10,000 nt of DNA, taken from positions 1 to 10,000 of the forward strand of contig JAIWNK010000040.1 of the NCBI GenBank assembly GCA_020216845.1, written 5' to 3'. The notes beneath the pieces are model-generated. The model ran no database searches. It worked only from the letters and a program-made list of their open reading frames with translations, and was not told where the DNA came from. The stretch is from Anaerolinea sp. Lineage in GTDB: Bacteria > Chloroflexota > Anaerolineae > Anaerolineales > Anaerolineaceae. Made by a program: the position numbers and the translations under genes. Below are positions 8,481-9,829 of the stretch, one piece after another (position 1 is the first letter of the stretch; every line of letters starts with the position of its first letter).

Positions 8481-8509
8481 TTGACATCGGTTTGCCGCGC
8501 CGGTATAAT
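8481..8509 (+). promoter_or_regulatory. Perfect-consensus SigA/sigma-70-type promoter of rplU-rpmA-rpmE
   Basis: TTGACA at 8481-8486 and TATAAT at 8504-8509 are separated by exactly 17 bases, a 12 of 12 match. Transcription is expected to begin near 8516, about 100 bases before the rplU start. Such a strong promoter fits ribosomal protein genes. Confidence 0.9.
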
Positions 8510-9258: not shown

Positions 9259-9290
9259 AACCTGGCTGTTATGAAAGGAAGGTTTTTGGC

Positions 9291-9767
9291 ATGAAAAAGG
9301 GTATTCACCCAACTTATTATCCCGATGCACAGGTGATTTGTGCCTGCGGCAATACCTGGACGACCGGTTCGACGCGCAAGGTCATTCGCACCGAAGTTTG
9401 CTCGAATTGTCACCCCTTCTTCACCGGTCAGCAGCAGCGCCTGGTGGACATTGAAGGTCAGGTGGACCGCTTCTATCGCAAGCTGCAAGCGCGTCAGGCT
9501 TATGTGGACGCCAAGAAAAACCGCGAAACCGAGCGCGTTTCATTGGAGCGCCCGGTGGCCGATTTGGAACTTGGCCCACGCCCAACTGAGGCTTTGACCA
9601 AGGCTGGCCTTACGACGGTTGGCCTGATTTTGGCCAAAATGGCCGAAGGCCCAAGCGCCTTGTTGGATGTGGAAGGCTTTGGTCGCAAATCTTTGATTGA
9701 CCTGAAGAAGCGCCTGCGCCAATTGGGCTACACCCTGCCGGAAGCGGCGGATGAGGTTGCTGCCTGA
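9291..9767 (+). CDS. rpmE: Ribosomal protein L31 fused to an RNA polymerase alpha-CTD-like domain
   Basis: The 158-residue product is more than twice the usual L31 length of about 70. Residues 1-65 are a normal zinc-type L31: [20 protein letters not shown], with the four zinc cysteines C17, C19, C37 and C40, then [22 protein letters not shown] charged, probably helical linker (about 66-86) leads to residues 87-150, which resemble the helix-hairpin-helix C-terminal domain of RNA polymerase alpha: [29 protein letters not shown], then [16 protein letters not shown]. By eye, R97 matches E. coli alpha R265, G131 matches G296, K133 matches K298 and S134 matches S299, while N268 is replaced by E100. 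The frame is open and in the same codon style across the junction, so a sequencing artefact is unlikely. L31 sits at the central protuberance and bridges to the small subunit; the extra domain could contact nucleic acid or a transcription factor (inference). Strong ribosome binding site AAAGGAAGG at 9274-9282. Confidence 0.92.
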
Positions 9768-9792: not shown

Positions 9793-9829
9793 CTACCCCT
9801 CCCGAGTTTTGGGAGGGGTAGCTTTTTTT
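9793..9829 (+). terminator. Intrinsic terminator of the rplU-rpmA-rpmE operon
   Basis: A perfect 11-bp stem, CTACCCCTCCC (9793-9803) with GGGAGGGGTAG (9811-9821), has a 7-base loop and is followed by C and seven T residues (9823-9829). It lies 25 bases after the rpmE stop and is a textbook Rho-independent terminator. Confidence 0.95.

Follow-up and report, generated by a model that had tools for sequence, protein, structure and literature searches.

The window analyzed here, a stretch of 10,000 nucleotides from an Anaerolinea sp. assembly (GCA_020216845.1, contig JAIWNK010000040.1), closes with three co-oriented genes, rplU, rpmA, and rpmE (Table 1). The hairpin 3' of rpmE is called terminator-like on its position and stem length only, one such hairpin having been found against 2.4 expected in shuffled sequences; beyond it a thymidine kinase gene (PF00265) begins. 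The source genome (1.83 Mb, 168 contigs, 75.7% complete) gave a single L31 match, and a separate contig, C113, bears an RpoA-size frame that has a CTD of its own (69.9 bits).

Table 1. Features of the rplU-rpmA-rpmE locus in window coordinates
Feature	Position	Strand	Details
Putative sigma-70-type promoter-like sequence, TTGACA-17-TATAAT, before rplU	8481..8509	+	12/12 consensus; consensus match only
rplU, ribosomal protein L21, 111 aa	8599..8934	+	PF00829, 111.9 bits
rpmA, ribosomal protein L27, 93 aa	8940..9221	+	PF01016, 120.7 bits
Shine-Dalgarno-like AAAGGAAGG before rpmE	9274-9282		
rpmE fusion gene	9291..9767	+	bL31 plus alpha-CTD-type domain; ATG start, 158 aa plus stop
bL31 domain, residues 1-65	9291..9485	+	PF01197, 91.3 bits (cut-off 27); C17, C19, C37, C40
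Polar arm, residues 66-85	9486..9545	+	Mostly the end of predicted helix 54-82; length nearly fixed, sequence variable in the family
Alpha-CTD-type helix-hairpin-helix domain, residues 86-150	9546..9740	+	R97, G129-F130-G131, K133, S134, K139, K140, R143
Terminator-like hairpin then T run, 3' of rpmE	9793..9821	+	13-pair stem

The initial annotation read rpmE as a fusion of L31 with an RNA polymerase alpha-CTD-like domain, and the fusion is real: both Pfam domains score above their cut-offs within one 158-aa open reading frame. The complete four-cysteine L31 that it saw at residues 1-65 is borne out by PF01197, and the cysteines form a type A zinc motif that is nearly invariant (at least 90%) in 44 diverse relatives. 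It had allowed that profiles might place the C-terminal part (its residues 87-150) in no helix-hairpin-helix or alpha-CTD family; they place it in the latter. RNA_pol_A_CTD (PF03118) matched residues 78-143 in Pfam with 32.1 bits (cut-off 23.8, E 9.3e-8), whereas the generic HHH_5 profile (PF14520), run on residues 82-158 alone (77 aa), reached 13.7 bits, below its cut-off of 27. An NCBIfam search agreed with Pfam, and the best 38 matches in a PDB sequence search were all RNAP alpha. PF01197 matched 44/44 of the diverse relatives and PF03118 43/44 (E <= 0.01) versus HHH_5 in 5/44, which rules out a generic helix-hairpin-helix domain. The alpha N-terminal domain is absent from the fusion protein, in which L31 alone precedes the CTD-type domain. 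AlphaFold predicted a single helix from residue 54 to 82 followed by the domain (mean pLDDT 82.5), but the relative placing of the two domains is unreliable because pTM was 0.48. Fold comparison, as the initial annotation had advised, assigned the predicted domain to the alpha-CTD fold; Rad51/Dmc1 N-domains likewise fit, with lower Z. The four-cysteine motif is missing from 3 of 107 collected fused loci (L123, L159, and L160), and fusions L220 and L221 also lack it; the added domain is therefore found on zinc and zinc-free L31 alike.

A profile built from the L31 tail and the CTD was searched against 396 genomes of the class Anaerolineae, and 162 were scored as fused (best E <= 6.4e-23, the next genome being at 5.2e-20; counted by eye, then recounted). 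All belong to 20 families, in which they make up 162 of 173 genomes; the other 234 genomes of the class gave E >= 5.2e-20 or no match at E <= 1e-9. Low scorers were checked, and G478, G442, G425, and G533 proved on reading to carry full extensions, while G497 was called fused from its coordinates alone (query residues 1-137, in a 158-aa frame). Among the 11 failures in the fused families, nine had a best E above 1e-12 in a separate search and were taken to have L31 missing from the assembly, G644 is apparently split over two contigs, and G347 has a 96-residue unfused L31. Of 301 genomes drawn from the phylum, the 38 from Anaerolineae supplied all 28 matches at E <= 1e-16, and the 263 from outside the class none; L31 matches, counted by eye, numbered one in 291 of these genomes, two in one, and none in nine. 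A protein search returned at least 7903 matches at E <= 0.001 among 8000 candidates scored, not necessarily all fusions, and 119 of the best 120 carried both Pfam domains in precomputed annotation read by eye. The best 80 loci of a genome scan comprised 60 fusions (L064-L123, with L097 and L104 lacking the L31 start) and 20 unfused loci. Two Bryobacteraceae matches among these 80, long in the tblastn list, were candidates for a fusion outside Chloroflexota and prove to be unfused with lysine-rich tails.

The survey of Chloroflexota rpmE genes that the initial annotation had proposed thus finds the fusion intact and widespread. These data indicate that bL31 bears a real, conserved, and remodeled alpha-CTD-type domain, found in this survey only within the class Anaerolineae. 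Judged by sequence, L31 in many species of the class carries an added domain, a relative of the RNA polymerase domain that binds nucleic acids and proteins. Two side observations concern other Chloroflexota records: L117, titled Herpetosiphon sp., is a fusion very like those of family f2 and may come from a mislabeled MAG, and the unfused L31 proteins L124, L126, and L128 end in PRERKPR-like tails, each about 100 residues long, in which proline, arginine, alanine, and glutamate abound.

The initial annotation had worried that relatives might have a short L31 and a separate downstream CTD gene; an assembly or annotation artifact joining two genes, which the fragmented source genome might have invited, is practically excluded by the same fusion in 162/396 class genomes, including single-contig ones such as G176, G005, and G112, and in the named strains Longilinea arvoryzae KOME-1 and Flexilinea flocculi TC1. 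No separate CTD gene was found in the unfused genomes scanned either. In G276 (f11), G518 (f7), and G325 (f107), the sole PF03118 match (E <= 0.01) lies in an RpoA-size frame. The second match in G037 and G152 of family f4, whose unfused status rests on the PF03118 genome scan and the L31-tail/CTD profile scan, sits in NusA. Second matches in G344 (f97; L215, G344:C303, 34.8 bits) and G510 (f110; G510:C1:5156335, 26.5 bits) lie within frames of 1537 aa, beginning by eye like RpoC (RNAP beta prime), and 1546 aa, respectively. All 30 class genomes scanned, fused or not, had a CTD match above cut-off in a frame of 263-396 residues, taken as RpoA. In the 23 fused genomes, the DNA-level PF03118 scan (E <= 0.01) placed the L31 domain above the curated cut-off in 19 and below it in 3 and left it unmatched in 1 (G541).

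Among fused loci with 450 or more upstream bases, L27 lies at most 1 kb upstream in 94/97, and both L21 and L27 are present in 93/93 of those with at least 900. This order is not fusion-specific, since L27 also adjoins L31 in 9/30 loci outside Anaerolineae and in 12/14 further unfused loci.

Residues were compared, in E. coli numbering from MG1655 rpoA, between 100 distinct fusion proteins and 28 RpoA CTDs of the same class (L174 and L175, from f4, were left out). The 265 determinant, which we take to be R265, N268, N294, G296, K298, S299, and E302, is kept in 28/28 RpoA CTDs, as is R293. In the L31 domains, position 265 is still R in 90, with K in a further 8, and G296 is kept in 99, K298 in 81, and S299 in 86. 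N268, by contrast, survives in 16; N294 does so in 1, with G instead in 98, and E302 in 5, with D instead in 76, and R293 is mostly lost. The window protein retains equivalents of R265, G296, K298, and S299 (R97, G131, K133, and S134, respectively), as the initial annotation had recognized; its residues at N268, C269, N294, and E302 are E100, A101, G129, and D137. With N268, N294, and E302 replaced, the complete determinant is absent from the window protein and most relatives. The suggestion that the domain binds DNA as alpha-CTD does is therefore weakened: the four residues on which it was based are mostly kept, but N268, N294, and E302 are mostly lost in L31 and fully kept in RpoA.

A different set of residues has become fixed on L31. 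Position 304 is K in 97 of the 100 L31 domains, 305 is K in 90 and R in 6, and 308 is R in 95, and all three vary in the 28 RpoA CTDs. They are conserved about as strongly as the core leucines 270, 300, and 307, in a set of distinct but related proteins, and the helix pattern suggests that they would face outward. A helix-hairpin-helix hairpin grips the nucleic-acid backbone without sequence preference, and the G-F-G of the L31 domain is close to the usual hairpin form. A three-residue insertion before position 285 is common to the L31 and RpoA copies of the class and absent in E. coli, which suggests that the domain originated inside the lineage.

The stretch from R60 of L31 to the R265 equivalent measures 37 residues in 89 of the 100 distinct proteins (range 34-43). 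Mean pairwise identity is 36.5% in the arm, 70.5% in L31, and 51.3% in the domain. According to two papers, bL31 has its C-terminal part on the 30S head, where it contacts uS13, uS19, uS14, and h41 or h42 (PMC9966373, PMC7530986). The initial annotation had tethered the added domain to the central protuberance; on these accounts that placement is not upheld, and the domain should be at the 30S head.

Our best explanation, to which we give slightly less than an even chance, is that the added domain docks on the 30S head and clamps nucleic acid there. The gene product would be the cell's L31, with the fused form presumably built into ribosomes as usual, as bridge B1b/B1c. The domain would be a copy of the alpha-CTD helix-hairpin-helix that probably arose within the lineage and was later remodeled. 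Since the C-terminal part of L31 is placed close to uS14 and h41/h42 on the 30S head, the extra domain would occupy the same region, extended from L31 by a helical arm whose length is fixed. The GFG hairpin, R97, K133, and K139/K140/R143, probably at the surface, would most likely grip a nucleic-acid backbone; the proposed ligand is the 16S rRNA in the head, and binding to it might strengthen or tune the intersubunit bridge formed by L31. This explanation is favored by the sole L31 match in the source genome and the mostly single L31 per genome in the phylum, by the constancy of the spacing despite the divergence of the arm, and by the predicted helix leading into the domain. It is also favored by the basic residues at 304, 305, and 308, which are near-fixed in L31 and variable in RpoA, with none of 16 NusA copies of the domain basic at 308. 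Among those NusA copies, 305 is basic in 3 and 304 (K/R) in 11; the 16 are the domains caught by pattern, minus that of G232, and poorly recognizable ones are mostly outside the set.

Several observations count against a clamp, and shared ancestry may also fix the spacing. A 16S comparison covered 11 fused and 7 unfused, non-independent genomes: 12/32 had no 16S match, and the partial sequences of G489 and G524 were excluded. No gain or loss on the scale of a helix tracks the fusion in h33, h39, h41, or h42. Three single positions partly separate the groups: 968, 1116, and, in h41, an added base near 1286 that is present in 5/7 unfused and 1/11 fused genomes. Helix 39 has 25-26 bases in all 18 Anaerolineae, fused and unfused (L266-L283), versus 39 in E. 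coli. In families f93, f113, and f117 the domain on L31 is divergent and without the basic set (R265 is kept in 3/6), and does not fit the proposed surface; in the f101 copy, position 305 is E and 308 is Q. In an RpoA plus NusA tree of 30 genomes, f93/f113/f117 form a separate clade (support 100), and f4 and f11, nested inside the main fused clade (support 83; deep branches weak), do without the added domain on L31; that absence also counts against the clamp.

In genome G373 (f101), NusA is encoded adjacent to L31 and ends in two such domains, to which the domain on L31 is 82% and 79% identical; its identity to the remaining domains compared is at most 57%. An unrooted tree of 94 domains (76 columns) groups RpoA CTDs with the f101 L31 and its NusA (97), sets the E. 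coli acidic repeats on very long branches, and leaves most L31 domains outside both groups with weak support; it separates f93/f113/f117 and f101. AU tests, made with fast trees and a short alignment, rejected no constraint at 5% (p = 0.18 for all L31 domains together, 0.26 for main plus f93/f113/f117, 0.058 for main alone), and a single origin of the fusion is thus not rejected.

A domain of this kind ends NusA in part of the class. PF03118 matched above cut-off in the NusA frame of 7/30 genomes (G373, twice, G037, G546, G152, G192, G638, and G327), and by eye NusA has an alpha-CTD-like C-terminal domain in 13/23 fused genomes and both f4 genomes. Loci of this type include L204 (G373, two copies), L212 (G037), L213 (G192), and L214 (G327). 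The domain is poorly recognizable in seven fused genomes (f12, f118, f120, f126, f127, f128, and f129), and none was seen by eye in fused f93, f113, and f117 (G366, G407, and G571) or unfused f7, f11, f97, f107, and f110. NusA of the source genome (L244) has the domain by eye, with a profile match that is not significant (12.9 bits, E 0.15). Presence of the domain on L31 is therefore not strictly tied to its presence on NusA, as the NusA domain is missing in some fused genomes and present in unfused f4. Alpha-CTD-like domains were also seen on other large proteins (L205, L207, L208, L209, and L211, in G373, G638, and G546), whose carriers, named by eye, are SNF2-type helicases, a PPK2-like protein, and a 1374-residue frame with six such matches, one of them below cut-off.

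These NusA domains bear on a possible transcription-translation tether, in which the domain on the 30S head would, like alpha-CTD in E. coli, bind the NusA C-terminal domain, RNAP, or upstream DNA and would couple the leading ribosome to RNAP. Its relationship to alpha-CTD, by sequence and fold, the occurrence of similar domains at the end of NusA, and the high identity in G373 are in keeping with such a role, as is the reported binding of the E. coli NusA AR2 to alpha-CTD (PMC12297416). We nevertheless consider a tether unlikely, given the mismatched distribution of the two copies, the insignificant match in the source genome's own NusA, a mostly constant spacing for which a flexible tether has no need, and the loss of much of the DNA determinant. 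Unlikely, too, is a broader proposal in which the alpha-CTD-type module on RpoA, L31, and, in several lineages, NusA is a shared docking handle, the L31 copy engaging NusA, RNAP, or a common partner from its place on the 30S head. If true, transcription-translation coupling would be hard-wired into the ribosome and not dependent on NusG and NusA only, and a NusA-L31 module transfer, as may have occurred in f101, would reflect the shared partner.

The domain could instead be an inherited, near-neutral folded tail, joined to L31 by chance and kept as harmless. Other Chloroflexota L31 proteins bear diverse tails, the domain is absent from f11, f4, and G347 (f101), and its residues have drifted in f93, f113, and f117; but drift would not keep positions 304, 305, and 308 as conserved as core leucines, even allowing that related sequences are not 100 independent observations, and we regard this account as improbable. 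We are at least as skeptical of the initial annotation's moonlighting regulator, in which free L31 would bind DNA or its own mRNA through the domain and control ribosomal genes. A precedent is gamma-proteobacterial bL31, reported to be an autogenous repressor; it acts through its N-terminal segment (PMC10931766). The equivalents of R265, K298, and S299 are mostly kept, but N268, N294, and E302 are mostly lost, and an Rfam scan of the window gave no family at threshold, which leaves room for an undescribed leader.

Extensions of ribosomal proteins are common; one made of an RNA polymerase domain and kept by many families of a class is unusual. A transcription domain has moved onto a ribosomal protein and been remodeled, and the fusion allows a test between a ribosome's own handle for the transcription machinery and a new clamp at the L31 bridge. 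Searches of the open-access literature, judged by titles and the opening lines of abstracts, turned up no description of the fusion, which is weak evidence of absence, with most subscription journals outside that scope.

Compared with type A bL31 (PF01197, rpmE), the protein is a complete zinc-type L31 and the sole L31 match, in an L21-L27-L31 order shared with unfused Chloroflexota, but the fusion adds about 90 residues holding a second folded domain. With the RNAP alpha CTD (PF03118), the added domain shares the profile, the fold, and the three-residue insertion before position 285 seen in RpoA of the class and not in E. coli; it differs in not being on RpoA, in having mostly lost N268, R293, N294, and E302, and in its near-fixed K304, K305, and R308. 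The C-terminal domains of NusA, which are acidic repeats in E. coli and alpha-CTD-like in some Anaerolineae, are the same kind of domain ending another gene-expression protein, but the NusA copies are without a basic residue at 308 and do not strictly accompany the L31 copy. Chloroplast ribosomal proteins are reported to bear N- and C-terminal extensions (PMC5071890); L31 here likewise has an added tail, but one that is a recognizable relative of an RNA polymerase domain.
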